DNA of 64,000 nucleotides from Hydrogenimonas sp. SS33 (lineage in GTDB: Bacteria; Campylobacterota; Campylobacteria; Campylobacterales; Hydrogenimonadaceae). Under the pieces are notes generated by a model. That model was given only the letters and a program-made list of their open reading frames with translations, had not been told where the DNA came from and did no database searches. The stretch lies in assembly GCF_040436365.1 (NCBI RefSeq), contig NZ_AP026369.1:1489501-1553500 (forward strand). Direction: 5' to 3'. Of this stretch, positions 40,922 through 56,235 are shown piece by piece. Position numbers and translations under genes: made by a program. Position 1 is the stretch's first letter; the number at the start of each line of letters is the position of its first letter.

Positions 40922-42012
40922 ACCGCATCCTTAATCACGGAAACGACCCGCTCCACATCCTCCCGCTCCATGGCGGTACCGCTGGGCAGACAGAGGCCCC
41001 GGGCGAAGAGCTTCTCGCTCATTTCGCCGCCGTAACGGCGGGCATTGCCGAAAAGAGGCTGCAGGTGCATCGGTTTCCAGAGAGGGCGGGATTCGATCGC
41101 CTCTTCCTCCAGGGCCGCCATCACCTTCATCGGATCGGTACGTTCGAAGGTGAGGGTCGTCAGCCAGCGGTTGCCCATCGCGCCTTCGATCTCGGGCATG
41201 AAGGCGATTTCGCCGATCTCTCCCAGGAGCTCCCGATACCAGGCGAAGATCTGCCGCTTCTTACGGATCCGTTCGGGCAATACTTCCATCTGCCCCACCC
41301 CGATGGCCGCCAAAACATTGCTCATGCGGTAGTTGTACCCCAGCTCCTCGTGCTCGTACCAGGGGAAGGGCTCTCTGGCCTGGGTGGCGAGCTTTCTGGC
41401 ATGGGCGATCGCCTCCTCGTCGTCGCTGACCAGCATCCCCCCGCCGCTGGTGGTGATGATCTTGTTGCCGTTGAAGGAGTAGATTCCGAAACGTCCGAAG
41501 GTCCCGGTCTGCCGCCCGTGCAGCGTGGCTCCCAGGCTCTCCGCCGCATCTTCGATCAAGGTCACGCCGTGGGCTTCGCAGATCTCGGCGATCTTGTCGA
41601 CCTTGGCACTCTGGCCGTAGAGATGGGTCAGCACGAAGGCTTTGGGCCGCTCCCGGACGATCGCCTCCTCCACCCGTTTGGGATCGGCGTTCCAGCTCTC
41701 GTCGCAGTCGACGAAAACCGGCTCGGCTCCCTGATAGAGAATCGGGGCCACCGAGCCGATGAAGGTGAAGGTGGAGGCGAGCACCCGGTCCCCCTCCCCC
41801 ACGCCGGCGAGCCGCAGCGCCAGATGGACCGCCGCCGTCGCTGAACTGAGCGCCGCCGCAGCCTTTACCCCGGCGAAGGAAGCGACCGTCCCTTCGAAAC
41901 GATCCACGAAGGCCCCCAGCGGTGCGATGTAGTTGCTCGCGAAAACTTCCTGGATATACCGAAGCTCGTTGCCGCCCATGTGGGGCGGGGAGAGAAAGAG
42001 CTTTTTCTTCAT
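40915..42012 (-). CDS. pglE: UDP-4-keto-sugar aminotransferase (PglE-type)
   Basis: A PLP-dependent DegT/DnrJ/EryC1 aminotransferase of 365 residues that would make UDP-4-amino-4,6-dideoxy-GlcNAc from the PglF product. It begins FLSPPHMGGNELRYIQE, typical of PglE and related enzymes, and the PLP lysine is in FNGNKIITTSGGGM. The ATG at 42012 with AGGAG upstream was chosen over an in-frame codon 18 residues earlier that overlaps pglC. No acetyltransferase (pglD) gene is next to it. Confidence 0.92.
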   Translation of the reverse strand: MKKKLFLSPPHMGGNELRYIQEVFASNYIAPLGAFVDRFEGTVASFAGVKAAAALSSATAAVHLALRLAGVGEGDRVLASTFTFIGSVAPILYQGAEPVFVDCDESWNADPKRVEEAIVRERPKAFVLTHLYGQSAKVDKIAEICEAHGVTLIEDAAESLGATLHGRQTGTFGRFGIYSFNGNKIITTSGGGMLVSDDEEAIAHARKLATQAREPFPWYEHEELGYNYRMSNVLAAIGVGQMEVLPERIRKKRQIFAWYRELLGEIGEIAFMPEIEGAMGNRWLTTLTFERTDPMKVMAALEEEAIESRPLWKPMHLQPLFGNARRYGGEMSEKLFARGLCLPSGTAMEREDVERVVSVIKDAVC

Positions 42013-42611
42013 GCACCGCTCCTGATCGTTCGGTAGATGATTTCGAGATCTTTCACAAACGACCAATGTTTGACATAGGCTTTGTTGATGCGCACCTTGT
42101 CGGGCCAGATCACTTCACGGTTGTAGCGTTCCGGATCTTTCTGCTTCGTCAATATCTCTTCCTCGTTGCGGTATTTGAGTGTCGCGGGGCCGGTAATGCC
42201 GGGCCTGACGGAGAGAACGAGACGGTCTTCCCCTTCCAGGCGGTCGGCGAAACCCGGAACATCGGGCCGCGGGCCGACCAGGCTCATATCTCCGACCAGC
42301 ACGTTAAAAAGCTGCGGAAGCTCGTCGATTTTGGTGCGCCTGAGAAACCTCCCCGATCTGGTAATGCGCACATCATCCGCCGTCGTGACCGTCGTATCGA
42401 CCGAAGAGGAGGGTTTCATCGTTTTGAGCTTGACCACCCTGAAGCGTTTTCCGTCCTTTCCGATTCTCTCCTGCAGAAAAAAGCCGTTGCTGCGGGTTTC
42501 CCAGGAAGCGGCAATCCATCCTGCCGCGATGACGGGCCACAACAGCAGCAACCCCGCCGCGGCCACCCCCACATCGAAACATCTTTTGACGAAACGGTCT
42601 GTGCGCGTCAT
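42009..42611 (-). CDS. pglC: Undecaprenyl-phosphate sugar-1-phosphate transferase (PglC-type)
   Basis: A monotopic phosphoglycosyl transferase of 200 residues that starts the lipid-linked oligosaccharide. The N-terminal re-entrant helix (FDVGVAAAGLLLLWPVIAAG) is followed by RFLRRTKIDELPQLFNVLVG, with the catalytic Asp-Glu dyad, and DMSLVGPRPDVP. The size fits PglC, not the large WbaP type. Overlaps pglE and pglB by 4 bp each. Confidence 0.94.
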   Translation of the reverse strand: MTRTDRFVKRCFDVGVAAAGLLLLWPVIAAGWIAASWETRSNGFFLQERIGKDGKRFRVVKLKTMKPSSSVDTTVTTADDVRITRSGRFLRRTKIDELPQLFNVLVGDMSLVGPRPDVPGFADRLEGEDRLVLSVRPGITGPATLKYRNEEEILTKQKDPERYNREVIWPDKVRINKAYVKHWSFVKDLEIIYRTIRSGA

Positions 42612-44698
42612 AACTTCAGTCGATACACCTTCGCCCAGGGAGAACTTTCGACCAGCTCGAAGAGATCATCGTCATAGTTGCCCAGAACGAAAAGCTGGAC
42701 ATAGAGAGAGTTGTACATCGCCTCATCGACCAGAAGGAAAGTATTGTAGCTTTTCATATAGATCAGGGAGAGCCGGGCTTCGGGATTGATGTTCTGCACC
42801 TGCGTCCGGTTGATACCCCCCCGTACGAGGGCGGTCGTAACGAACCTACGAAGCTGTGTTTTCTTTTTGCCTATCGAAAGCAGCCCGTTCTTTTTGTCGA
42901 GCCTGATGCCGTTGGCGAAGACCAGGGCATCGGGGCTGTTTCTGAACCGGTTCATCTTCAGGAAAAATTTCCGAGGAAGCCGCTCGCCCGTGGTGAGGTC
43001 GAGGTTGCTGAAAACCGCGACGGTGGGGAAGATTTCCAGCATCCGATAGGGAAGATAGAAGAAAATATCACGGCTCTTCGGAGGCAGTTTCACGGGTGAG
43101 GTTTCCCCGAGCCGTGCCAGAAATTCGCGGGGATCGGTCTGGTCTTTCTGTTTGTTCCCGAAAAGGGTGTCCGCAACGACTTTGTATCCCGACGAGACAT
43201 AGGTTTCGACCGCGATACGGCTGAGCCGCGCCGCCTCCAACTGGGAGTCGGTGGTGAGAATTTCGGAAACGATGAAATTGTCGTGGTCGTGCTTTCCTCC
43301 GTCGATCAGTGTATTTTTGTCGGCATAGTACCAGATCGGATAGCCGTAATCCCACCATGTCAGGACATAATCTTTCTCGCTCCCTTTTTTCCTGAGCGCG
43401 TCAAGCAGCGCCACCTCTTTGTTCGTAAAAACCGTAGGAACCCTGTATCCGAGAATATGGGTAATATTGGGCCAAATCGCCAGAAAGGTGAGCAGGGCCA
43501 TCACTCCGAAGCGGGCCTTTTCATTCCGGACAAAACCGGCGACAAGATAGACAAGATAGACCAGGCTGATCGCCGCTACCGGAACGGCATAGACGGTAAA
43601 GCGCAAACCACCCCAGAGTGAAAAGATACCGATACCGATGAGAGGCAGGGAGATAACGAAGGATCGATGGCGCATGATCAGCAGAATGTATCCGATCAGC
43701 GCCGCGAAAAGTCCTGGAACGGAGCCGCTGATTCTTTTGGCCATCAGGTCAAAAGGAATTTTGCCCGCTTCACGTACCGTGGCGTTGACCTGGAAAAAGT
43801 GCAGGCCGCCGCTCTCTTCCCCCCGGATGGCATAGGATGCCACCTTGTGCCAGATGAGAGGGAAAACATCTCCCAGCCAGAGAAAAAGAAGCACCGCCGC
43901 GGCGGCGGCGATCTTCTCCTGCAGCGGATCCGTCCGCTCTTTTTCAAACGCCCAAAAGACTCCCGCTATCAGCAGGACCTTGACGGGCCAATAGATATGA
44001 AAAAGCGCAATCGCGATGATGACGATGGAGCGGTAGGTGAATCGCTCTTTCGGATGGAAAACCACCATATAGAGCATGTACATGATGCCCATGGCATAGA
44101 CGATCGAGAGCCCCTGATCATAAAGAAACGGGTAAAGAATAATCGTTGCCGCCGCCAGAAGCAGATGGGTAGTGTCCTCCTTTTCGATAGACGCAAGCAG
44201 AAAATAGAGAATGAACATGGGCGCCATCGCGGAGAACATATCGGTATCGTAATAGCCCGTCATGGTCCGGTTGTAGTAACTCCACGCGATGGAACCGAGC
44301 AGTGCGGCGAAAAAGCCCATCAGCGTCGAACCGTAGAGCCGTCCTATCAATATAACGGGAATAACGACCAGACTCGAAACCACCGTCGGCATATACAAAA
44401 TGGCGGTATCCAGCGAAACCGGCAGTACTTTTGTCGCCAGCCACGTAAAGAAGGTGGTTGCGGTATACCAGATATCGGGGACTCTCGGGTTGTACTGCAG
44501 AGTTCCGAAAAGCTGTTTCTGTACACCGGAAGCGAAATAGTACCCGTCATTGGTGTTGATCATCAACTGACCGTTCCAGAAAAACTCCGGATGTGTGCCG
44601 GCCCACTGCACCCAGACAAGACGCATGGCGACACTGAAGAGATAGGCGATCAGAATCAGAACGAGGGTCTGCTGACGACCGAGGTTTTCATTTTTCAT
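42608..44698 (-). CDS. pglB: Oligosaccharyltransferase PglB (STT3 family)
   Basis: Transfers a lipid-linked glycan to Asn in D/E-X-N-X-S/T sequons in the periplasm. The 696-residue protein has about 13 membrane helices and a periplasmic C-terminal domain. Catalytic signatures are present: NTNDGYYFASG at about 49-58, YYDTDMF (D-x-D) at 149-155, TVRE in the external loop at 307-310 (the TIxE motif), and WWDYGYP at 448-454 for sequon Ser/Thr recognition. This is close in length to C. jejuni PglB (713). It overlaps the upstream GT2 gene by 11 bp. Confidence 0.97.
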   Translation of the reverse strand: MKNENLGRQQTLVLILIAYLFSVAMRLVWVQWAGTHPEFFWNGQLMINTNDGYYFASGVQKQLFGTLQYNPRVPDIWYTATTFFTWLATKVLPVSLDTAILYMPTVVSSLVVIPVILIGRLYGSTLMGFFAALLGSIAWSYYNRTMTGYYDTDMFSAMAPMFILYFLLASIEKEDTTHLLLAAATIILYPFLYDQGLSIVYAMGIMYMLYMVVFHPKERFTYRSIVIIAIALFHIYWPVKVLLIAGVFWAFEKERTDPLQEKIAAAAAVLLFLWLGDVFPLIWHKVASYAIRGEESGGLHFFQVNATVREAGKIPFDLMAKRISGSVPGLFAALIGYILLIMRHRSFVISLPLIGIGIFSLWGGLRFTVYAVPVAAISLVYLVYLVAGFVRNEKARFGVMALLTFLAIWPNITHILGYRVPTVFTNKEVALLDALRKKGSEKDYVLTWWDYGYPIWYYADKNTLIDGGKHDHDNFIVSEILTTDSQLEAARLSRIAVETYVSSGYKVVADTLFGNKQKDQTDPREFLARLGETSPVKLPPKSRDIFFYLPYRMLEIFPTVAVFSNLDLTTGERLPRKFFLKMNRFRNSPDALVFANGIRLDKKNGLLSIGKKKTQLRRFVTTALVRGGINRTQVQNINPEARLSLIYMKSYNTFLLVDEAMYNSLYVQLFVLGNYDDDLFELVESSPWAKVYRLKL

Positions 44699-45692
44699 GG
44701 CTCTTTTTCCGTTTCTTTGTTATCATCAATTTCAAAACCTCCATTATACCAGCCAACTCACCGATACCATAGGAGAAGTGCAGAACCGCAAAAGCGGCCA
44801 TTTGGGTAAACGGGTCCGTCTTTCGGGCGATCCGGAGGCTTCTGAGGAAGATAGCCGCCGCATAGATCCCTGCAACCGCGAGCGAGACCGCGGCACAGCA
44901 CGGCAGAGGCAGCACGATGCCCAGGATGAGGGCCAGAGGGGCAAAGTGGCGCGGAGAAAGGCTTCGGAAAGTGCCTGTGTAATAGGCGGTCAGCAGATTC
45001 CATTTTCCGTTTTCGAAATTGTTTTTCGCCAAAGATGCGAAATCCTCTCTCGCATAATAGACCGCCTTGATTTCCGGGACGAGAAAGACTTTTCCGCCCT
45101 GCCGGATGAGTCTCTTGTTGAGCTCGATATCCTGGTTGCGGATCAGCCGTTCGTCATACCCCCCGAGTCTGCGCAGCATCTCCATCCGGTAGCAGCCGAA
45201 GGGAACCGTATCCGCCTCCACGGGGCGTCCGACACCTGTTCTGAAAGCGCTTCCCACGCCGAGTTTGTCGCTCAGCACGTTACGTATGGCATGGGCCACG
45301 GGAGTCTCTTTGCGAACCCGGGTTTCGATCACGGCCCCCACATTGTCCGCCCCCAGCGATCTGTGCCACTCGATCAGTTTCCGGAAATAGTCCGTCGGAT
45401 ACTCCGCGTGGGCATCGAGCCGGATCAGATACTCCCCCGTCGCTTCGGCGATTCCCAGGTTCATCGCAACTGGTACGATGCGCCGGGGGTTGTCGATGAG
45501 CCGGATAAAGGGAAATTTCCGATGATACTCTTCCGCAATTTCGCGGGTGGCGTCTTCACTCATTCCGTCAATGAGCAGCACCTCCATCTTCTCCTTCGGA
45601 TAATCCGTCGCCAGAATCGAGTCCAGGCATGTCGCGATGTAGCGCTCCTCATTGTAAAGCGGAACCACTACAGTGATTCTCGGCAAATCCAT
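44688..45692 (-). CDS. Family 2 glycosyltransferase
   Basis: A 334-residue GT-A enzyme starting MDLPRITVVVPLYNEERYI, with the metal-binding region LIRLDAHAEYP and FRTGVGRPVEADTVPFGCYR followed by NQDIELNKRLIRQGG (the E-D-x-E-like acceptor block). Two or three membrane helices near the C-terminus (FAPLALILGIVLPLPCCAAV) anchor it. Probably adds a sugar to the lipid-linked glycan at the inner face. The ATG at 45692 was chosen from homology over an upstream codon inside the GT9 gene. Confidence 0.9.
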   Translation of the reverse strand: MDLPRITVVVPLYNEERYIATCLDSILATDYPKEKMEVLLIDGMSEDATREIAEEYHRKFPFIRLIDNPRRIVPVAMNLGIAEATGEYLIRLDAHAEYPTDYFRKLIEWHRSLGADNVGAVIETRVRKETPVAHAIRNVLSDKLGVGSAFRTGVGRPVEADTVPFGCYRMEMLRRLGGYDERLIRNQDIELNKRLIRQGGKVFLVPEIKAVYYAREDFASLAKNNFENGKWNLLTAYYTGTFRSLSPRHFAPLALILGIVLPLPCCAAVSLAVAGIYAAAIFLRSLRIARKTDPFTQMAAFAVLHFSYGIGELAGIMEVLKLMITKKRKKSHEK

Positions 45693-46564
45693 TCCACCTC
45701 CTCTACCGTCAGATCCCGCAGGCACTCCAGCGTGGTACACCCGATACGATCCGTCGCACTGTCGAAACAGGGACGGCACGAAAGGGCGAGTGAGACCGCC
45801 CGGTTTTGCGGGCCGTAGCCCCCGGTCTCTTTCTCATTGGTCATGCCGTATATCGTCACCGTTTTCTTCTCCAGCCCGTAGGCGATATGCATCAATCCGT
45901 TGTCGTTTCCCACCATCAGATCCATCCCGCCGATCGCGGCGACCGTCTCCTCCAGAGGAAGTCCTCGCACAACCTTGAAGCCTCTGCCCTCAAAAGCCGG
46001 AAGCAGTTCCGGTTCGTCGGGCCCCAGAAAGATCCACGCTTCCCCGCCGAGGCGCTCCGCGAGGCGGGCGAACCTGTGGGCGTCCCAGCGCTTGAAGGCC
46101 TGTTTGCTTCCGCTGCCGGGTGCGTACCCTATGCGGCGGACGGGTAACGCTCCATTCGTTCCCCCCTTCCGTTTCGGGGCATAGACATAGGGTCTGCGTT
46201 CCTGCCGGTCGAGCAGAGGGGCGACCATTTTCAGGTTGACATCGATGCGATGGAGACCGGGGATCTGTGTCGAGGCGAAAAGTCGGGGAATCGCCAGGAG
46301 CTTTTGAAGCTTTTTCGCCTTCTGCGGATTGGCCCCCGCCGTTACTACCAGCGCGTCGTAGCGCCCGAAAAAACGCAACCACTGCCAGGGTTTCGGCACT
46401 ATATAGACTTTGTGCAGGAAAGGGGCTTCCCGGACGATAGCTTCCTGAACGGCCGAGGTCAGCGCCAAATCGACACGGTGGCCGCTCAGCGCCAGAGAAC
46501 GCATCATCGGTGTGGCCATGATCAGATCTCCGATTCCCCAGGGGTGCATGACGAGTATCTTCAT
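45668..46564 (-). CDS. Family 9 glycosyltransferase (heptosyltransferase-like)
   Basis: A 298-residue GT-B enzyme starting MKILVMHPWGIGDLIMATPM, the GT9 N-terminus. The donor site block is MDLMVGNDNGLMHIAYGLEKKTVTIYG. Most GT9 members use ADP-heptose; the donor here is unknown. The C-terminus has CRPCFDSATDRIGCTTLECL, a cysteine cluster also seen in other GT9 proteins. It overlaps the GT2 gene by 25 bp and the GT4 gene by 4 bp. Confidence 0.9.
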   Translation of the reverse strand: MKILVMHPWGIGDLIMATPMMRSLALSGHRVDLALTSAVQEAIVREAPFLHKVYIVPKPWQWLRFFGRYDALVVTAGANPQKAKKLQKLLAIPRLFASTQIPGLHRIDVNLKMVAPLLDRQERRPYVYAPKRKGGTNGALPVRRIGYAPGSGSKQAFKRWDAHRFARLAERLGGEAWIFLGPDEPELLPAFEGRGFKVVRGLPLEETVAAIGGMDLMVGNDNGLMHIAYGLEKKTVTIYGMTNEKETGGYGPQNRAVSLALSCRPCFDSATDRIGCTTLECLRDLTVEEVEWICRESL

Positions 46565-47634
46565 CGGAGAGACTCCTCTATGAAAGCCGTAAGCCGCTCC
46601 CCCTGCTTCTCCCAACTCAGCGGTGTGAAATCATAGGTTATCGGCGATCTATTTTCTTTTTTCATCTCCTCCATCCTTTCGGCAAAGTCCTCGATGGGAG
46701 CGAAATGAACAAAGGGGAGCTTTTTGGCACGCAGGACATCCAGGGGCGTCGAAAGCACCTCGGCTCCCGCCAGGGCATATTCGAGCGCTTTGATCGGATA
46801 GGCGTTGCGGGTGAAGTCATTCAGTTCGAAGGGGATCAGGCCGACATCGATCGTCCTGAAATAGTCACCCACCTCCGCAGGATCTACCGGACCGGCAAAG
46901 CGGATCTTTCCGCCGTAGCGTCGCAGAAGATCCCGGTAGTAGTCACCCCCGTCTCCTCCGACAACCAACATCTCCGTCGTCTCGTCGGCAATGCGGAGGT
47001 AGGCTTCGCAGGCCCGGTCCAATCCGGTCCAGGGGGCCACACCGCCCACGAATCCGAAGACCCGTTTGCCCTGCCAGCCCCACTTCTTTTTCAGCGACTT
47101 CGCCTGCGCGAATTTCTGCAGATCGACCCCGTTTTCGACTACCCGGACACTGGCATTGAATTTTGATGCCTTCTTTTTCAGCGCTTCGCTAACACAGATA
47201 ACAGCTTTGGCGGCTCTCAGATCCTCCTCGACCTTGGCCACACGGGAGGCGCTCAGCCCCAGACGGGGATTGACGGAGAGATGGTCGTCCACAAGATCGT
47301 AGATGACCGGCACCCGGATCGACCCGACGTCAAAGAGCAGTGCGTTAGCATTGACCACCGCATCGAAACGGTAGCGTTCGATCACACGGTTGAGCAGAGC
47401 CGTATTGAACCGGGCGGCCGTCCTTTCGGGCCGCAGCAGCATCGGCATGGACAAACGCCCCTTTTCGATCCCTATGCCCCGAAACAGACTGCCGGCCTGG
47501 GAGCCTATTTTCTCCCCGAGGGTAGCGTTTCGCATCGGCCAGTGCAGAACGGTCTGGCCCGTCACCCGCGCGAACTCATAGACGCGGTTGACGACCCGGG
47601 TATTGGGAACATGGGGGATGAAAAGGAGTTTCAT
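46561..47634 (-). CDS. Family 4-like glycosyltransferase
   Basis: A 357-residue GT-B enzyme. The N-terminal domain has DAVVNANALLFDVGSIRVPVIYD, the C-terminal domain GFVGGVAPWTGLDRACEAYL and the donor-binding region VGLIPFELNDFTRNAYPIKALEYALAGAEVLSTPL (the E-x7-E-like element). Typical GT1/GT4 length. The donor sugar cannot be told. The ATG at 47634 overlaps the flippase stop by 4 bp. Confidence 0.88.
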   Translation of the reverse strand: MKLLFIPHVPNTRVVNRVYEFARVTGQTVLHWPMRNATLGEKIGSQAGSLFRGIGIEKGRLSMPMLLRPERTAARFNTALLNRVIERYRFDAVVNANALLFDVGSIRVPVIYDLVDDHLSVNPRLGLSASRVAKVEEDLRAAKAVICVSEALKKKASKFNASVRVVENGVDLQKFAQAKSLKKKWGWQGKRVFGFVGGVAPWTGLDRACEAYLRIADETTEMLVVGGDGGDYYRDLLRRYGGKIRFAGPVDPAEVGDYFRTIDVGLIPFELNDFTRNAYPIKALEYALAGAEVLSTPLDVLRAKKLPFVHFAPIEDFAERMEEMKKENRSPITYDFTPLSWEKQGERLTAFIEESLR

Positions 47635-48839
47635 GCCAACACCTTTCTCTTTTTGGCGAAAGCCCAAAGGAACATCACGGTATATCCGGCATCCATAGCC
47701 AGAACGATGCTCCTTTCATCGATCCCCGCCCGATAAAAACCCCACAGCGAGAGGAGAAAAGCCAGTGCGCCGGCTGTCCGGATCGCAAGAATGGTCTCGA
47801 AGAGACCGAAGCCTTTGAGAATATTGATACAGTAGGAGGTATAGACGATGAGCGGCAAAAACGGCAGAAGCCAGTTGAGAAGCAGAGCCCCGTGTACATA
47901 GGAAGCGGGGAAAAGCAGACCGATCACCTTCGGCGTCAACGGAAGGGAAAGAAGCAGAAGCACCAGAAAAAGAAGGAGATACTTCCGCAGATTTTTCTCG
48001 ATTCTGAGCACCTCGTCTCCGAGCCCTTCATGGATCAGCCTGGCGACTTCGGGCAATGTATACGCGGATACCGGATGGACAAAAACGGCGATCAGTGCGA
48101 AAAAAATACTCTTGACAACCACCTGATACTCCGCGAGGACATTCAGGTCGCCGTACAGGTTCATCATCAGGATCGAGCTGAGATAGAGTCCGAGCGAGCC
48201 CGCAATCGACGTAGCGGAGGAGAGGGCGGCAATTCGCAAAAACTTTATTTCGGTACTTCGCTCACTTTGACGAAAGGGGATACGGAACATTTCCGGCGAG
48301 CTCATTCGGATATAGAGCGCTTGAAGGAGGAGCTGGAAGAGATAGGCCAGGATCAAAGCATGCATCACGGGAACAAAACGGGAAAGAAGAAAGTAGCTTC
48401 CGACAAGCGCTACCGCCTTGACGCTCTTTTCAAAGAGCATGGAACGATAGTTTCGGAATGCGGCATTCATATAGGAGTAATAGTTTGACCATTGCGAAAA
48501 AAAGAAAAAGAGTATCAGCAGGAACAGGGGAAAAGCCTCATCCCTGTTCATATGCCCGGCGACGAAAAAAAGCGGTACGGCCAGCAAAAAAGAGCTTCCC
48601 CAATAGATTCGCCGCGCGGCCACGGAGACGGCTTCGTACTCCTGAAGTGCAACCATGCGTATCAACGCATCTTTATACCCTGCATAAAAGAGCACGAAAA
48701 GCGAAACGACATCGAGGAGTGTAAAGAAAAGTCCCAGCTTTTCTTTGTCCACCGTATGGGAGAGGTAGAGCTTGAAAAGAAAATTGACCCCCATGACAAC
48801 GATCGTGAGAAGCATCGCCTGGGATATGATACGTTTCAT
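47631..48839 (-). CDS. Wzx-like oligosaccharide flippase
   Basis: A 402-residue protein with about twelve hydrophobic segments of the MOP (Wzx/MATE) type, starting MKRIISQAMLLTIVVMGVNF and including FLRIAALSSATSIAGSLGLYL and VLAEYQVVVKSIFFALIAVF. It would flip the undecaprenyl-linked glycan to the periplasm and so replace the ABC flippase PglK of Campylobacter. The start at 48839 was chosen because upstream in-frame sequence lies in the CDP-alcohol gene. Confidence 0.86.
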   Translation of the reverse strand: MKRIISQAMLLTIVVMGVNFLFKLYLSHTVDKEKLGLFFTLLDVVSLFVLFYAGYKDALIRMVALQEYEAVSVAARRIYWGSSFLLAVPLFFVAGHMNRDEAFPLFLLILFFFFSQWSNYYSYMNAAFRNYRSMLFEKSVKAVALVGSYFLLSRFVPVMHALILAYLFQLLLQALYIRMSSPEMFRIPFRQSERSTEIKFLRIAALSSATSIAGSLGLYLSSILMMNLYGDLNVLAEYQVVVKSIFFALIAVFVHPVSAYTLPEVARLIHEGLGDEVLRIEKNLRKYLLLFLVLLLLSLPLTPKVIGLLFPASYVHGALLLNWLLPFLPLIVYTSYCINILKGFGLFETILAIRTAGALAFLLSLWGFYRAGIDERSIVLAMDAGYTVMFLWAFAKKRKVLA

Positions 48840-49525
48840 CGGAAGGCTAGATAAAATTTGAAAAGTTTGACACTGTAGTTGACAAAGCGGACGGCGACAA
48901 AATAGAGAAGGGCCCACTCCGGCTCTCCCGCCAGAAGGGCGATCGTCGTGACCAGAATCCACTTGTCGTAAAGGGTCATGCGGTCGATGAGCGCGATGAT
49001 CGGCCGAAGCGTCGAACTTCTTTTCTGCAACGAAATCTCTTCGCCCCTCTCTTCTCCGCTCCCTTTTTGCCGCTCCTGGCAAAGGTTTTTTTCCAGGGCG
49101 AAATCGAGAAAAGAGAGTGCGAAAAAAAGCGCCGTCAGATAGAGAGCCTCCGTCTCCCCGGACCGGTGATAGGCGGCGATCCCGAGGGCAAATGCCATCA
49201 AGGTGATGTTCCAGCCGTCCACCAGGCTGTCGAAAAGGGCGCCGAATGTGGAACTCTCCCCTTTGACGCGGGCCCACTGACCGTCCATATTGTCAAAAAG
49301 ATAGAGAAGGCTGAGCATCACGATACCTGCCAGATAGTGGCCGAAGGATACAGTGAGGAAAAATCCGATTCCGAAAAGAAAGGATACGGCGGTAATGGCA
49401 TTGGCACTCAGTTTTCTGTCCTGCAGAAGATAGACGAGACGGGAGGCCGCCTCGTTGAAGATTTTCAGATAAAATCCTCTCCCTTTTTGGGTCTTTCGAA
49501 TCTCTTCCAGCGAATACCGTTTCAT
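48836..49525 (-). CDS. CDP-alcohol phosphotransferase family membrane protein
   Basis: A 229-residue integral membrane enzyme with the complete CDP-OH-P-transferase signature D-x2-D-G-x2-A-R-x8-G-x3-D-x3-D (D78, D81, G82, A85, R86, G95, D99, D103). Such enzymes displace CMP from a CDP-linked substrate with an alcohol. In most cases the substrate is CDP-diacylglycerol. Next to a cytidylyltransferase-type gene and inside a glycan operon, this one may instead use a soluble CDP-alcohol and decorate a glycolipid. No canonical PssA or PgsA sequence is recognised. Overlaps both neighbours by 4 bp. Confidence 0.9.
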   Translation of the reverse strand: MKRYSLEEIRKTQKGRGFYLKIFNEAASRLVYLLQDRKLSANAITAVSFLFGIGFFLTVSFGHYLAGIVMLSLLYLFDNMDGQWARVKGESSTFGALFDSLVDGWNITLMAFALGIAAYHRSGETEALYLTALFFALSFLDFALEKNLCQERQKGSGEERGEEISLQKRSSTLRPIIALIDRMTLYDKWILVTTIALLAGEPEWALLYFVAVRFVNYSVKLFKFYLAFR

Positions 49526-50223
49526 TGCCCTTCCCGCTTCCTGACAAAATCGACCGCATACTCGGCATAGATGTCGTTACTGTCGAAAACCGGTACTCCC
49601 CTGTAGGCTGCAAGGGTATCGGAGAGTGCCAATTCGGTACATCCGAACAGCACCGAATCGATCTTTTCAAGTTTTCTGTAGTGCTCCATATACCCGACCA
49701 GTTTCACGGCCGTCTCCTCCATCCGCTCTTTCTCGTCGAGCTTGGCGGATTCGATCAGGTCGTAAACGAGCGAATTGCCTTTTTCATCCAGATAGACCGT
49801 TCCGGGTAGATAGGGGTCGTATGTTTTTTTGGTGACGGTGACATAACCGCCGAGAACAAGCGTCCTTCTACCCCCGGAGGTTCGGATCCGATCGGCTACG
49901 GCCTGAAGCATGTTCAGCCAGGGAACGGAGATTTCCGGAGCGACCCGCCCGTAAAAATAGTGAACGGAGTTGCAGGGCAACACGACAGCGCAGGCTCCCG
50001 CACGGGCAAGGCGTTCAATCCCCGAGATGATGGCGGGGACGGGATCGGCCTCATGGTAGAGAATATGTCTCGTTCGGCTGGGAATGCGCACATCATTGTC
50101 CAGAATCGTATGGATATGCTCCCAGTCTTTCCGGGCCGGGGTCTTTTCCAATATCTTCCGGTTGAACTCCAGGGCGGCATAGGGCCCCATTCCGCCCAGG
50201 ATACCCAGTATCGCCTCAGCCAT
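49522..50223 (-). CDS. Aspartate/glutamate racemase family protein
   Basis: A 233-residue cofactor-independent racemase of the YgeA/Asp-racemase type, starting MAEAILGILGGMGPYAALEF. Both catalytic cysteines are present: Cys84 in LPCNSVHYF and Cys194 in LFGCTELAL. It would epimerise an amino acid or related acid. Being inside a glycan operon it probably serves glycan decoration rather than MurI function. The ATG at 50223 overlaps the methyltransferase stop by 8 bp. Confidence 0.9.
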   Translation of the reverse strand: MAEAILGILGGMGPYAALEFNRKILEKTPARKDWEHIHTILDNDVRIPSRTRHILYHEADPVPAIISGIERLARAGACAVVLPCNSVHYFYGRVAPEISVPWLNMLQAVADRIRTSGGRRTLVLGGYVTVTKKTYDPYLPGTVYLDEKGNSLVYDLIESAKLDEKERMEETAVKLVGYMEHYRKLEKIDSVLFGCTELALSDTLAAYRGVPVFDSNDIYAEYAVDFVRKREGQ

Positions 50224-50986
50224 CTTCTCTCCTGAAAATGTAATAGTAGTTGACCAGTCTGTTCCTTCCGGGTTTCCAGACAATATCCTTGAAAGCCAGC
50301 AAGCCCGTAGCCGCGGAGGAAATTTTTGGATGCTTCAACAAAGAAGCCATTCCCAGGGGGGCAAGATTTTTTCGCAGTTCACCCACCCGGTAGGCATAGT
50401 TTTGACGGGAACCCAGGTATTTCAAAGAGACAGCTTCGCGGTAATAGGCTTTGTGGCGGTAAAAGACGGGGTACTCCGCATCGCCGGAATATTCCGCTGC
50501 CCGGCTCATGACACTTTCGCGAAGAACCAGCACCCCTCCTTCCCGCAGAATATGCCTCAATCTTTGAAGATACTCCCCGATCTGCGCATCATCCACATAC
50601 ATCAGCACTCCGCCGACATAGACAAAATCGTACCTGCCGTTTTCACTTTCCGCCGACTCGATGAGGTCTTCGTGACGGAACCGGCAATTGGGGGGAAAAT
50701 CCTGCGAAAGGTTTTTTTCTATAATCGTTTTGGAGATATCGATCCCCACCGCCTCTTCGAAATGTGTTGCCAGCACTCTGGTAAACCGTCCGTTTCCGCA
50801 ACCGACATCCAGGGCCCGTCTCCTTGATCCGGGAGAAGAGTTCTTTTCGATAATTCTCTCCAGCTCCCTCTTTTCAAGGGCAAACCTCATATCGGCCAGA
50901 TGCGTGTCATCGTTCAGATACCCACCGTCACTGTATCGCCGATAGGCCTCTTCCCAGAAGTTGCGGACATTCTGACGGTAATTCAT
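50216..50986 (-). CDS. Class I SAM-dependent methyltransferase
   Basis: A 256-residue soluble protein with motif I LDVGCGNGRF at 59-68, the acidic post-I AVGIDIS, and motif YDFVYVGGVLMYVDD. Family and context suggest methylation of a sugar or small-molecule precursor; the target is unknown. Overlaps the nucleotidyltransferase-ParB gene by 4 bp. Confidence 0.85.
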   Translation of the reverse strand: MNYRQNVRNFWEEAYRRYSDGGYLNDDTHLADMRFALEKRELERIIEKNSSPGSRRRALDVGCGNGRFTRVLATHFEEAVGIDISKTIIEKNLSQDFPPNCRFRHEDLIESAESENGRYDFVYVGGVLMYVDDAQIGEYLQRLRHILREGGVLVLRESVMSRAAEYSGDAEYPVFYRHKAYYREAVSLKYLGSRQNYAYRVGELRKNLAPLGMASLLKHPKISSAATGLLAFKDIVWKPGRNRLVNYYYIFRREDG

Positions 50987-51978
50987 TGCTCCATCATCCG
51001 CAATTGCCGCAGCAGGTATTCCCGGGTCTCCTTCTCTTCCTTGAGATACTCCCGGATAATTTCGATCTCTTCATCAATCTCTTCTATATACCCCCGATCC
51101 AGCTCCAGTTCGGTTTCGAGAGAACAGGGTTCTATCAGGCCGTCGATGGAACGTTTCTCTCCCCGTTCCAGCTTTTCCAGCGCGACCGGCCAATCCTCTT
51201 TGCGGAAAGGAAAAAAATGACGGGTCGTTCGGGGAGGGAACAGATCCCCGCTCAAAGCTCTGCGAACCACCTCTTTCTTGGAAATACGGAAATTTTGGTC
51301 TTTGAGAAAGCGGTGTTTGAGATGGTTTCCCACAAATATCGCCTCATCTTCGTAATCCACCAGCACCGCCGGAGCCAGACGGTATCCCTGCTGCATCAGG
51401 TAGGCATACCTGTGCGATCCGTCCAAAACGATACCGTGACGACGATCCACAATCAGGGGTTTCCGTACTTCTCTATCCTTTTCGATCATTTTCGCGATAT
51501 TGAGAAGATGCGTCGGCAATACCCGCTCCAGAGGCCTGAGAGTCCCGATCTCCACGATCTTCCTCTCAACCCGGTACTCTTTTCGCAGAGGAATCTGCTT
51601 TTTCATGCCGATCGCTTCACGGATTTCCGTACCGCTGTAACCCAAACCCTCTGTCCGCGGCACATAGACGGTTTCATACTTTCCTCTGAAATAATCGAGG
51701 ACTTTTTCGTTGCCGGACAGCACGACTTCGACCCCCTCGGGAAGAGTGGCACTCCCCTCTTCCACCACGCCTTTGACAATCGTGGTAGAAATCGTATCGA
51801 AATCTCTGAAAACCTCATCGAAAATCTTTTTCACCTCTTCGGCGGGCATGATACGGGTATCTTCCGTAATACCGACGGTCAGATCCGGATATGCATCCTT
51901 CAGGCGAAGAATCGTCCGCACATGGCCCAGATGGGGCGGTTGGAATTTTCCGAGAAAAATTGCTTTGGAACTATTCAC
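50983..51978 (-). CDS. Cytidylyltransferase-like domain fused to a ParB/Srx-like domain
   Basis: A 331-residue two-domain protein. The N-terminal half (about 1-130) is a nucleotidyltransferase of the cytidylyltransferase/NMNAT class: LGKFQPPHLGH with HxGH at 16-19 and GLGYSGTEIRE, the equivalent of the ISSTxIR motif. The next part (about 140-235) resembles the ParB/sulfiredoxin fold (LIVDRRHGIVLDGSHRYAYLM). Known relatives of this fold include free-serine kinases such as SerK and SbnI. The last 80 residues form a charged coiled coil. I infer phosphorylation then CTP activation of a small alcohol. Overlaps both neighbours. Confidence 0.82.
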   Translation of the reverse strand: MNSSKAIFLGKFQPPHLGHVRTILRLKDAYPDLTVGITEDTRIMPAEEVKKIFDEVFRDFDTISTTIVKGVVEEGSATLPEGVEVVLSGNEKVLDYFRGKYETVYVPRTEGLGYSGTEIREAIGMKKQIPLRKEYRVERKIVEIGTLRPLERVLPTHLLNIAKMIEKDREVRKPLIVDRRHGIVLDGSHRYAYLMQQGYRLAPAVLVDYEDEAIFVGNHLKHRFLKDQNFRISKKEVVRRALSGDLFPPRTTRHFFPFRKEDWPVALEKLERGEKRSIDGLIEPCSLETELELDRGYIEEIDEEIEIIREYLKEEKETREYLLRQLRMMEQ

Positions 51979-53839
51979 TTTTCAACCCTTTTATCCAGTA
52001 GTATCTGTTCATCCGCGGGATCCTTGAAGGAAGCGGATGCTCCAGCGTTTCGACATGCTCTGCATAAATATGCTTTTCGGCAAGTCTCTTTTTCCAGCCG
52101 CCGGCATAATACCAGCGTTCACGGAAAGGATCGTCCCAGGCATACATCCATTTGCCGTTCAGCTCGAAAAACGGCTTGAGCAGCCCCAAACCCGAAACCG
52201 GGTTTCGCTCTCCGATCAGGAGCGTTCCGTTCTTTTTCAAAACGCGCCGGATTTCGGCGAGGGCATCGTCCAAATAGGTATGCTGCAGGACCTCGATCGT
52301 CAAAACGGCATCAAAATACCCCTCTTTGAACGGAATGGCGTAGGCACTTCCCCGACGGACGTTTTCTCCTTCGAAAACGGGATCGACGCCGACGATCTCC
52401 CATGCCGGGTACCGCGTTTTCAAAGCTTCGATGAAGCGTCCTCTGCCGCACCCCAGATCCAGAAACCGTATCTTTTTCTTCTGCCATCCCTTTTTTTGCA
52501 CACACTCATCGATCTTTTCCAGATAGAGCCGCTCCATCGCTCCCAGCTCCTCTCCGGCCACCTCTGCCGGAGCGAACGAAAAAGCATGGGCGACGAAACA
52601 CTCCTGTTCACACAGCGAAGAGGGTTCCCTCTCCCGTCTCAGGATCAGAGCATCGATGAAAAACTTGTTTCCCCAGTTGACGAAATCAAAGGCACCGTAC
52701 CGACCCCAAAAGGGTACGGAAGCGGGAAGGGCACCCCGCAGAACCCCTTCGGCAAAGAGCTGTTTCGGTTTGAGATAGAAAATCGTCACATCTGCCGCTT
52801 CGTTCCATTTCTCATCCGATGTCAACCGCGCAAGCCGGAGAGAGATACCGGCCCATTGGGCCAGGCCGGTCATGCATTTCTGGGGATTGGCGCACCCGAA
52901 ATCTTCATCATACTGGGAGCAGAGTATCTTCTCTTCACGGTTCTGGCGCTTCAAAAGCTGTCCGGCGTTTTTCAGAACCGCTTCGAGGTATCGGGAATCG
53001 CCTTCAAGGGCATAGGCGTCGAGCAGCCCTTCCAGGATATAGACAACCGTATGCAGATAGGCGGGGACCCCTTCGACAAACGAAGCGTGGCGGAAAAAAC
53101 CGTTGGGTTTTTGTTGGGCAAGAACCCATTCCAAATGGCGTCGGGCCACATCGGCGACCGCTTCATCCCCCTGCGCTTTGGCGTACTCCAGCATGGCTGC
53201 CGCCACTCGGCTGTAGTAGGCATGGGGCTGTTTGTTGTAGGCGACACGCCGCCAGCTGCCATCGGCTTCCTGACTATCGGCCAGCCATTTTGCAGCCCTT
53301 TGCGCCGCATCACGGTACCGTACATCCCCGGTTTCGCTCCACAGGCGGTTCAACCCTGTCAAAACCTGCCCCGTATCGAAAGCCATGGGAGCGCCCGAGT
53401 CGATCTCACTGAAACTTCCGTCCCTGTTTTGCACGGAGAGAAGCCACTCCCCGGCTCTGTGCACACTCCTCCTGTAGCGCTCATCCTGGAGCCACTCTCC
53501 CAGATCCAGCAGGGTCGGAATAATATAGCCGCTCGTTTCGATGTAACTCCGGTCCCGTCCGGAAATCAGCGAATACTTTCTGGCATACCCTCCATCTCCG
53601 TTTTGCATCGAAAGCAGCCACTCTCCCGCCGCTTCGGCATGGATCCGATCGTTCCATACTCTCTGGTTCCGCATTGAGGCGAAAGCTTCGAAAGTCATTC
53701 CGGGACGGGTGATTGCGGAGCGCAAGATGCCGTAAAGAGGGTAGATCCGTTCCCTAAAAGCCACGATCGCCCCTTCGAAATTCGTCCGGGCGGAGATTTC
53801 CGCCCCAATCATCGCCGGTTCGGAAACCGCCTTTTGCAA
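51971..53839 (-). CDS. Alpha/alpha-toroid protein fused to a SAM methyltransferase
   Basis: A 622-residue fusion. Residues about 60-400 hold repeats of the terpene-cyclase/glycosidase-like toroid type, such as AGEWLLSMQNGDGGYARKY, AGEWLLSVQNRDGSFSEID and AAKWLADSQEADGSWRRVA. No DxDD or other cyclase acid motif was recognised. Residues about 455-622 are a class I methyltransferase (LDLGCGRGRF at 460-469, VLTIEVLQHTYLDDAL). A CFVAH-containing linker joins them. Function unknown; sugar or lipid modification is likely from context. A TTG start after GGAG is used; an ATG at 53812 is an alternative. Confidence 0.8.
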   Translation of the reverse strand: MQKAVSEPAMIGAEISARTNFEGAIVAFRERIYPLYGILRSAITRPGMTFEAFASMRNQRVWNDRIHAEAAGEWLLSMQNGDGGYARKYSLISGRDRSYIETSGYIIPTLLDLGEWLQDERYRRSVHRAGEWLLSVQNRDGSFSEIDSGAPMAFDTGQVLTGLNRLWSETGDVRYRDAAQRAAKWLADSQEADGSWRRVAYNKQPHAYYSRVAAAMLEYAKAQGDEAVADVARRHLEWVLAQQKPNGFFRHASFVEGVPAYLHTVVYILEGLLDAYALEGDSRYLEAVLKNAGQLLKRQNREEKILCSQYDEDFGCANPQKCMTGLAQWAGISLRLARLTSDEKWNEAADVTIFYLKPKQLFAEGVLRGALPASVPFWGRYGAFDFVNWGNKFFIDALILRREREPSSLCEQECFVAHAFSFAPAEVAGEELGAMERLYLEKIDECVQKKGWQKKKIRFLDLGCGRGRFIEALKTRYPAWEIVGVDPVFEGENVRRGSAYAIPFKEGYFDAVLTIEVLQHTYLDDALAEIRRVLKKNGTLLIGERNPVSGLGLLKPFFELNGKWMYAWDDPFRERWYYAGGWKKRLAEKHIYAEHVETLEHPLPSRIPRMNRYYWIKGLKSE

Positions 53840-53921
53840 CGTTCTCCGGCGCGCTCACGCCTGAGCCGATGTGCCCGGCGATTTCCCGGGCCGGAACTGT
53901 TACGGGGACTCTTCGCATCCG

Positions 53922-55187
53922 TTACAACCTGGCATCGATTTTCGGGCGTTCAAGCAACCCTTTGATGTCGTAAACAACCCGCCGCCCGCTTTTTCCGATA
54001 TTCATTTTCTTGAATGCTTCATGCGCAACGGCCAAAACGACCGCATCGTACCGGTCGGCAAGCCCTTCTTCGAATCGGGGCAGCAGATCGATTCCATACT
54101 CCCTTTTCACCTCCGCCGCATCGGCCCACGGGTCGAAGACATCCACATCGCAACCGAAATCCGCCAACTCCCGAATCACATCTATTACACGGCTGTTACG
54201 GATATCCGGACAGTTTTCCTTGAAGGTGATTCCCAGCACAAGTACTTTGGCACCCTTGATCGTGTGCCCCTTGTGTATCATCAGCTTGACGACCCGGTTC
54301 GCCACATGAACACCCATATTGTCATTGATTCTCCGGCCCGAGAGAATGACTTCCGGATGGTAGCCTATCTCTTTGGCCTTGTAGGTGAGATAGTAGGGAT
54401 CGACACCGATGCAGTGCCCTCCCACCAGACCCGGTTTGAAAGGGAGGAAATTCCATTTGGTCCCTGCGGCGGCCAGTACGTCCAGCGTATCGATCCCGAG
54501 TTTTTCAAAAATGAGGGCCAGTTCGTTGACGAAAGCGATGTTGATGTCCCTTTGGGCGTTTTCTATGACTTTTGCAGCCTCCGCCACCTTTATGCTGGGA
54601 GCCATATGGGTGCCGGCCGTTATGACGGATGCATAGAGGTCATCGATCTTCTTGGCGGTTTCGGGGGTCGAACCGGAGGTGACCTTCGGAATTTTGGTGA
54701 CGGTGTGCTCTTTGTCACCGGGGTTGATGCGTTCGGGCGAATAGCCGCAATAGAAATCTTCATTGAATGTCAAACCGCTCTGTTTTTCGAGAATCGGGAC
54801 GCAAACCTCTTCGGTCGCTCCGGGATAGACCGTGGATTCGTAGATAACGATGTCGTTCGGTTTAAGGACTTTCGCGATGGTTTCACTCGCTTTTTTCAAA
54901 GGAGCAAGATCCGGATTTTTGTGCTCATCGATCGGCGTGGGTACGGTGACGATATAAATATTGCAGTTCCGTATCTCTTCCCTGTCGTCCGTAAACCGCA
55001 TACCGTTTCCGATAGCCTCTCTGACCTGCTCCCAGCTCAATTCCAAAGTGCGGTCATAGCCCTGTCGAAGCTCTTCGACGCGCCGGCGTGCAATATCGAA
55101 ACCGACAACGGGGTATTTGAAGCTGAAGGCATGGGCCAGAGGGAGGCCGACATACCCCAGGCCCACAACGGCGATCTTTTCAGACAT
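53922..55187 (-). CDS. UDP-sugar 6-dehydrogenase (WbpO/TviB type)
   Basis: An NAD-dependent dehydrogenase of 421 residues that oxidises a UDP-hexose or UDP-HexNAc to the uronic acid. Dinucleotide motif [10 protein letters not shown] at residues 7-16, [12 protein letters not shown]-like block (here [15 protein letters not shown]), and the catalytic Cys259 in [14 protein letters not shown]. The last motif is that of the WbpO/TviB (HexNAc) branch rather than of UDP-glucose dehydrogenase, which suggests a HexNAcA product. Overlaps the epimerase gene by 8 bp. Confidence 0.9.
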
Positions 55188-56235
55188 TGTAGAACTTCCG
55201 ATACCACGCTACAAAGTTTTCAATTCCCTCTTCGATCGAGGTGGCGGGTTTGTAGCCAAGATCTTCAATCAGATCGCTGACGTCGGCATAGGTCGCCGGT
55301 ACGTCGCCGGGCTGGATGGGAAGCAGGTTCTTTTTGGCTTTTTTCCCAAGGGCCTTTTCGATCGCTTCGATGAAATCCATCAGTTCGACGGGATTGTTGT
55401 TTCCGATATTGTAGATTTTGTAGGGGGCTTTGGAGCTGCCGGGGTCGGGATGTTTCCCGCTCCAGCCGGGATTGCCCTTGGGCGGATGGTCGATCACCCG
55501 GACAACCCCTTCGGCGATATCGTCGATATAGGTGAAATCCCGCTGCATTTTACCGTAGTTGAATACATCGATGGGGCGATCTTCCAGAATCGCCTTGGTA
55601 AAGAGAAAGAGCGCCATATCGGGCCGTCCCCAGGGGCCGTAGACGGTAAAGAAGCGGAGCCCTGTGGTTGGCAGGTTGTAGAGATGGCTGTAGGTGTGGG
55701 CCATCAGTTCGTTGCTTTTTTTGCTGGCGGCGTAGAGGCTGATGGGGTGGTCGACATTGTCGTGAACCGAAAAGGGCATGGTCTCATTCAGGCCGTAGAC
55801 GCTGGAACTGCTGGCGTAGGCCAGATGTTTCACCCCGGTATGGCGGCACGCCTCCAGAAGGTTGACAAATCCGACAATATTGCTGTCAATATAGGCATGG
55901 GGATTGGTGAGGCTGTAACGCACACCTGCCTGTGCAGCCAGGTTGCAAACGGCATCGAACCTCTCTTTTTCAAAAAGCTCTTCGACAGCTGCCCTGTCTT
56001 CGAGATTGAGCTTGATGAAAGTGTATTTTTCGTATTTGGTGCTTTTGACGGGTTTGGCGTATTCGATCGTCTCATCACCTTCGATTCCGGTCTCTTTCAA
56101 TCTGCCGTATTTGACACGTACGTCATAGTAGTCGTTGATGTTGTCGATTCCGACAACCTCGTCTCCTCTTTCCAGAAGGCGCACGGCAAGGTGAAAGCCG
56201 ATGAATCCGGCGGTGCCTGTTACAAGAATCTTCAT
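55180..56235 (-). CDS. UDP-glucuronate 4-epimerase-type nucleotide-sugar epimerase
   Basis: A 351-residue extended SDR with TGTAGFIG at 6-13, [17 protein letters not shown], which is characteristic of UDP-glucuronate epimerases, and the catalytic YAASK. It would interconvert UDP-uronic acids at C4, fitting the neighbouring dehydrogenase. Length is typical. It begins the glycan gene chain. Confidence 0.9.

Follow-up and report, generated by a model that had tools for sequence, protein, structure and literature searches.

In the Type A flagellin glycan of C. difficile and the b-type flagellin glycan of P. aeruginosa, N-methyl- or N,N-dimethyl-threonine is held in a phosphodiester linkage, and cytidine diphosphate (CDP)-threonine has been proposed as the intermediate (PMC10714395, PMC11833859). 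The corresponding gene sets (CD0240-CD0244 and, in strain PAO1, PA1088-PA1091) both include a dedicated N-methyltransferase and a CDP-alcohol-type phosphotransferase (PMC10714395, PMC11833859). They serve a flagellin O-glycan and combine a HAD/ThrH-like phosphotransferase, activation by a protein of the GDP-mannose-pyrophosphorylase fold and TagF-like transfer, with no racemase. The O-methyl phosphoramidate (MeOPN) pathway of C. jejuni employs other enzymes, uses glutamine and ends in a phosphoramidate product. It likewise involves a CDP-amino acid, CDP-L-glutamine, for a surface glycan of the Campylobacterota, the capsule, according to the part of PMC10714395 that cites its ref 32. Here we describe a four-gene module in an N-glycosylation operon of Hydrogenimonas sp. 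SS33, contained in a 64,000-nucleotide stretch of contig NZ_AP026369.1 (positions 1,489,501 to 1,553,500 of the forward strand; hereafter the window, whose coordinates are used throughout). On balance, we favor the view that the module makes a CDP-activated, N-methylated and probably D-configured serine-type amino acid and joins it to the lipid-linked N-glycan by a phosphodiester, prior to transfer of the glycan by PglB.

The module shares with the flagellin systems a predicted phosphodiester-linked amino acid on a protein glycan and a proposed CDP-amino acid. The functional classes of the Type A set (N-methyltransferase, cytidylyltransferase and CDP-type phosphotransferase) are all present, but they come from different families: the module has a fusion of a SerK-like domain with a domain of the glycerol-3-phosphate cytidylyltransferase (GCT) type, a racemase and a membrane CDP-alcohol phosphotransferase, and it lies in a pglB operon. 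Neither a ThrH-like HAD phosphotransferase nor a pyrophosphorylase-fold cytidylyltransferase of the CD0241 and CD0242 type was found among the operon genes (39107-56235). Judged from its sequences, the module would work like the Type A system yet does not belong to it.

Results

The four open reading frames are intact and lie on the minus strand. They encode the bifunctional nucleotidyltransferase/SerK-like fusion (50983-51978, 331 amino acids, GTG start), a S-adenosylmethionine (SAM)-dependent methyltransferase that resembles phosphobase (phosphoethanolamine) methyltransferases and is a putative N-methyltransferase (50216-50986, 256 amino acids), an Asp/Glu-type racemase independent of pyridoxal phosphate (PLP) and similar to cysteate/aspartate racemases (49522-50223, 233 amino acids, with the start corrected to the ATG at 50223), and an integral membrane CDP-alcohol phosphotransferase, the proposed transfer enzyme (48836-49525, 229 amino acids). 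The CDP-alcohol phosphotransferase gene overlaps the flippase gene on one side and the racemase gene on the other by 4 bp each, the racemase and methyltransferase genes overlap by 8 bp, the methyltransferase and fusion genes by 4 bp, and the fusion gene and the adjoining toroid-methyltransferase gene by 8 bp; the genes from the flippase to the toroid protein are therefore probably co-transcribed. An earlier sequence-only reading of this DNA had described the same composition: a CDP-alcohol phosphotransferase with its full signature, a racemase with both catalytic cysteines, a methyltransferase, and a nucleotidyltransferase with HLGH fused to a ParB/Srx-like domain, overlapping by 4-8 bp in an N-glycosylation operon. 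Each of these features was recovered here, the two folds of the fusion by both profile and Foldseek comparison and the operon setting by its pglB and its pglC-, pglE- and pglF-like genes.

The same gene order is present in a Campylobacterales metagenome-assembled genome (MAG) of a different family (G006, loci L003, L004 and L007) and in a Sulfurovum MAG (L005). The shared order runs from pglB through glycosyltransferases, flippase, CDP-alcohol phosphotransferase, racemase, methyltransferase and fusion to the toroid-methyltransferase gene, at 42-57% identity. A chance arrangement is excluded because the whole block is conserved in these two further lineages, and the search for the set beside pglB in other genomes, which the sequence-only reading had proposed, was thus answered. 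In G006, a WecA/MraY-like gene (L003, 9423-10358) occupies the position of the window's pglC while the rest of the operon is syntenic, and the module may thus be independent of one initiating sugar.

Five organisms from two phyla possess the full fusion, at 48-57% identity. In the Gammaproteobacteria, the fusion (~48% identity) directly follows a PF04464 gene, which is CDP-glycerol-phosphotransferase-like, and precedes the racemase and methyltransferase. The latter two are separate in Acinetobacter sp. S54 (L006) and form a single 440-amino-acid protein in Acinetobacter sp. CFCC 10889 (L009, 11034-12365) and Wohlfahrtiimonas populi (L008, 11459-12778), where they adjoin the kinase-cytidylyltransferase-like fusion. 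Judged from descriptions, the TagF-like transferase of these modules belongs to the same family as CD0244. The kinase-cytidylyltransferase fusion, racemase, methyltransferase and a CDP-alcohol-type phosphotransferase thus co-occur although the phosphotransferase family is swapped, and no other observation argues as strongly for a CDP-activated, racemized and methylated product. Type IV pilin-like genes are located near the module in L006 and L009.

Of the 399 genomes sampled from the order, only 2 encode the fusion, and the other members of the window's genus that were sampled all lack it, which suggests horizontal spread of the module. The contig search with a two-sequence fusion profile returned ten loci, of which five hold true fusions, including the Wohlfahrtiimonas copy that is broken by ambiguous bases in the draft; the contig search with a single fusion sequence gave no match. 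No fusion was matched in viral contigs or on plasmids. No standalone SerK-like relative was found in the order, the extra matches being essentially confined to the nucleotidyltransferase domain. On Agrobacterium plasmids, weak matches to the ParB domain lie next to type III PLP-dependent enzymes (NZ_CP120216.1, 154971-155327; NZ_CP123840.1, 75524-75814); these ParB/SerK-like domains are perhaps other free-amino-acid kinases.

Residues 1 to ~125 of the fusion form a nucleotidyltransferase domain, a putative cytidylyltransferase, that matches the cytidylyl/adenylyltransferase families PF01467 and TIGR00125. In comparison with solved structures, this domain can be aligned from end to end with the CTP:glycerol-3-phosphate cytidylyltransferase (TagD/GCT) of B. 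subtilis, PRTEG included, at ~26% identity in the fold alignment. The GCT signature, HxGH followed by RTEG-(x)-S/T, is present as HLGH at residues 16-19 and RTEG at residues 108-111; the segment RTEGLGYSGTEIR (residues 108-120) corresponds to RTEGISTTKIK of 1coz, with a two-residue insertion after RTEG in the fusion. HLGH and RTEG are invariant across five fusion homologues. RTEG-I-S-T-T is a signature of cytidylyltransferases of the GCT and choline-phosphate cytidylyltransferase (CCT) type. In contrast to TagD, the presumed substrate of the fusion would be a phospho-amino acid.

Residues ~136-270 form a SerK-like domain of the ParB fold, a putative free-amino-acid kinase, which matches the free serine kinase SerK (NF053625, 3e-14) and the PDB entries 1vk1 and 5x0b. 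It carries E151, DGSHR at residues 186-190 and RTTRHFFPF at residues 250-258, and is followed by a C-terminal helix (residues 287-330). The fusion segment PLERV aligns with HEQLV of wild-type SerK (5x0b) and with HQQLV and HAQLV of the E30Q and E30A mutants (5x0j and 5x0e). Since wild-type and mutant sequences align at this column, E151 is the equivalent of the SerK catalytic Glu30; it is invariant in the five fusions. Similarly, TTRHVLPF of SerK corresponds to TTRHFFPF of the fusion. The AlphaFold2 model of the fusion has a mean predicted local distance difference test (pLDDT) score of 75.9, with about 90 and above for the ParB-like core, and Foldseek ranks SerK (5x0g) at the top, nucleotidyltransferases next, GCT (1coz) at 16 and SbnI at 49. 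The ADP-dependent SerK of T. kodakarensis and SbnI thus share with the fusion the ParB fold, the catalytic Glu and the DG-x-HR and TTRH segments, SerK being the best match in both sequence and fold. The relationship is distant; the fusion differs in its attached nucleotidyltransferase and in a glycan operon that replaces the context of cysteine or siderophore synthesis.

The four top-ranking PDB matches of the methyltransferase, obtained with a four-sequence profile, are all phosphoethanolamine N-methyltransferases (PMTs; 8e-22 to 1e-11), followed by the next family at 1e-10. Foldseek also returns many PMT entries, intermixed with BioC and farnesyl pyrophosphate (FPP) methyltransferases, so that PMT is the best family by profile and prominent among the fold matches. 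Unlike PMTs, the module enzyme is single-domain and bacterial, and its presumed substrate is of the phosphoserine type. Its closest relatives outside the module within the order (E 1e-30 to 1e-50) share with it the motifs FW-x2-AY, DGGYI, RES and AYYR. The clusters of these relatives (n=4) contain a 2-aminoethylphosphonate-transaminase-like gene and an NTP_transferase gene. Three of the four (L028, 5883-10859; L029, 6256-10318; L030, 5413-10424) also carry a PF04464 (TagF-like) gene, in place of which a Stealth-type phosphotransferase adjoins in L027 (7888-10578). This gene context suggests that the family methylates amines on a nucleotide-activated phosphate or phosphonate, and the four clusters are apparently other sets for the decoration or activation of phosphorus-linked amines. 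L028 and L030 each encode two methyltransferases of the module's family.

The best match of the racemase is cysteate racemase (5e-44), and its best PDB match is an aspartate racemase. It scores 128 bits against the cut-off of 93.1 for the amino acid racemase subfamily TIGR00035, and 150.9 bits, below the equivalog cut-off of 190, for the cysteate racemase CuyB (NF052483). As in CuyB and aspartate racemase, two catalytic cysteines are present: C84 and C195, in CN(S/T) and GCTE contexts, are invariant in six homologues. So is the Lys that pairs with PhAspR K164 in the alignment, and four of the six keep the Arg aligned with PhAspR R48; we take K164 and R48 to be functional residues. Cofactor-free racemases of this type act on amino acids with acidic side chains, a description that O-phosphoserine would fit, and phosphoserine is the presumed substrate here in place of cysteate or aspartate. 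In the open literature, we found no racemase reported to use phosphoserine.

The CDP-alcohol phosphotransferase contains the complete motif D78-x2-D81-G82-x2-A85-R86-x8-G95-x3-D99-x3-D103, which is invariant in three homologues, and matches PF01066 with 47.5 bits (cut-off 22). Its best NCBIfam match is archaetidylinositol phosphate synthase; among solved structures, AF2299 (1e-9 with the profile) and an inositol-phosphate enzyme come nearest. Its scores for PssA (23.6 against 107 bits) and PgsA (15.9 against 109) are far from the equivalog level. The genome encodes three further CDP-alcohol phosphotransferases, among them PgsA and PssA above their cut-offs (at positions 452624 and 1221054 of the genome); identity with either was therefore rejected, and the fourth paralogue is free for another role.

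The remaining genes of the operon are also on the minus strand. The flippase gene (47631-48839 after correction of its start) encodes a Wzx-like protein of 402 amino acids with a Polysacc_synt match below the cut-off. It is followed by glycosyltransferases (GTs) of the families GT4 (46561-47667), GT9, heptosyltransferase-like (45668-46615), and GT2 (44688-45692), the PglB oligosaccharyltransferase (STT3; 42608-44698; NF050801, 2e-162), a PglC-like polyprenyl-phosphate sugar-1-phosphate transferase (42009-42611), a PglE/LegC-like aminotransferase (40915-42066) and a PglF-like nucleotide-sugar 4,6-dehydratase (39107-40921). The first gene of the block (51971-53839, 622 amino acids) encodes a fusion of two parts: an alpha/alpha-toroid, which matches the toroids of pectate lyase, GH88, prenyltransferase and squalene cyclase, and a SAM methyltransferase. 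Its counterparts (L005, 8217-10004; L004, 1068-2804) hold the same position in the Campylobacterales relatives, so that it is the first gene in three lineages. Upstream of the block, a nucleotide-sugar dehydrogenase (TviB-like) and an NAD-dependent epimerase (53922-56235) suggest a uronic acid in the glycan.

Discussion

We propose the following pathway, the chemistry of which is deduced from folds, motifs, catalytic residues, gene order and recurrence. The SerK-like domain would phosphorylate free L-serine to O-phosphoserine with ADP or another nucleotide. The two-cysteine racemase would epimerize phosphoserine, a substrate with an acidic side chain like cysteate or aspartate, the phosphobase-type methyltransferase would methylate the amino group of phosphoserine or of the CDP ester formed from it, and the GCT-type domain would couple the phosphoserine-type product to CTP, giving CDP-(N-methyl)serine; no order of these three steps is implied. 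The membrane phosphotransferase would then place phospho-(N-methyl)serine on the undecaprenyl-linked glycan, releasing CMP, ahead of flipping and of transfer by PglB. All four enzyme types would converge on phosphoserine: SerK makes it, racemases for acidic substrates would accept it, a GCT-type domain would turn it into CDP-serine, and phosphobase methyltransferases act on its decarboxylated analogue. Serine is thus most likely the alcohol activated by the fusion. More tentatively, and with slightly less than even confidence, we suggest that the single fusion polypeptide makes CDP-serine from free serine and that the N-glycans of some Campylobacterales carry racemized, N-methylated phosphoserine added by the CDP-alcohol phosphotransferase.

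Several observations weigh against this pathway. To our knowledge, the acceptors of CDP-alcohol phosphotransferases are all lipids or inositol phosphate, and none is a glycan. The methyltransferases of the gammaproteobacterial modules have weak or no affinity to PMTs, and the fused racemases of these loci keep both cysteines but have no Arg at the position of PhAspR R48 in the alignment. That the nucleotidyltransferase domain uses CTP is argued from its motif; the ATP-using nicotinamide mononucleotide (NMN) adenylyltransferase and pantetheine-phosphate adenylyltransferase fit its fold equally well by Foldseek and are also matched in sequence. The SerK-like half scores 52.8 bits against the NF053625 cut-off of 380, in two separate aligned stretches, and is shorter, with the part matching SerK residues 100-203 failing to align, for which reasons we call the domain SerK-like without equivalog status. 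The His of DGSHR is a Tyr in one homologue. An archaeal protein resembling SerK was found to bind CTP but not ATP (PMC12704722), and the domain might accordingly serve as a nucleotide sensor.

The sequence-only reading, that the fusion phosphorylates and CTP-activates a small alcohol for transfer to the lipid-linked glycan, is supported computationally, as each of its proposed checks that could be run turned out favorably. It had named three points that would tell against it. The ParB-like part keeps the kinase residue Glu30 of SerK as invariant E151; the nucleotidyltransferase, for which a specificity for NMN or a lipid precursor had been considered, carries RTEG of the GCT type, which makes an NMN specificity doubtful; and the phosphotransferase does not group with PssA or PgsA. 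The statement that no described pgl pathway has this combination stands in that none was found in the open literature, where no CDP-serine glycan pathway was found either. However, decoration with an N-methylated phospho-amino acid is already known for flagellin, by way of a proposed CDP-amino acid, and the novelty is partly reduced (PMC10714395, PMC11833859).

Among the alternatives, the same pathway might act on threonine or another hydroxy-amino acid, giving an N-methyl-threonine or, through the racemase, an allo-threonine phosphodiester. The N-methyl- and N,N-dimethyl-threonine of the Type A and PAO1 b-type glycans (PMC10714395, PMC11833859) and the distance of the kinase domain from SerK would agree with this. 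We regard it as unlikely, and prefer serine, because the characterized SerK of T. kodakarensis accepts Ser but neither Thr nor homoserine (PMC5120207); the annotation of SbnI likewise reads O-phosphoserine synthase.

Rather improbable is that the ParB-like domain is a nucleotide-binding regulator or scaffold and the fusion solely a CTP:phosphoserine cytidylyltransferase fed by SerC. Phosphoserine is indeed an existing intermediate of serine biosynthesis, and the CTP binding of the archaeal protein points the same way (PMC12704722), but both the catalytic Glu of SerK and its C-terminal TTRH region are retained, and the fusion is maintained as a whole in all five organisms.

We see a still smaller chance of a Kennedy-type lipid pathway, in which a membrane lipid or undecaprenyl phosphate would receive the CDP-amino acid, yielding a new type of head group or a donor for the periplasm, and glycan modification would be indirect or absent. 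CDP-alcohol phosphotransferases usually act on lipids, and archaetidylinositol phosphate synthase is the best NCBIfam match; against this stand the PssA and PgsA encoded elsewhere in the genome, the linkage of the block to pglB, glycosyltransferases and a flippase in three lineages, and the gammaproteobacterial replacement by a TagF-like enzyme, whose family acts on glycan or glycerol-phosphate chains, in loci for protein or surface glycans. It is very improbable that the fusion serves as a common NMN or pantetheine-phosphate adenylyltransferase, joined to a partner domain of no relevance and surrounded by housekeeping genes: the likeness in sequence and fold is outweighed by the RTEG signature, the genomic context with its strict co-conservation of racemase, methyltransferase and CDP-alcohol-type phosphotransferase, and the absence of the fusion from almost all relatives.

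From the pathway to a phosphodiester-linked, N-methylated serine it is predicted that CDP-serine, or a methylated form of it, exists as a metabolite. The fusion offers a directly testable case of a possible one-protein route that leads from a free amino acid to the corresponding CDP ester, and a ParB/SerK-fold fusion would gain an assigned function in glycan synthesis. If the proposal is true, CDP-alcohol phosphotransferases would extend to glycan acceptors, and the decoration of protein glycans with phospho-amino acids would have arisen from at least two enzyme sets and would extend to N-glycans.

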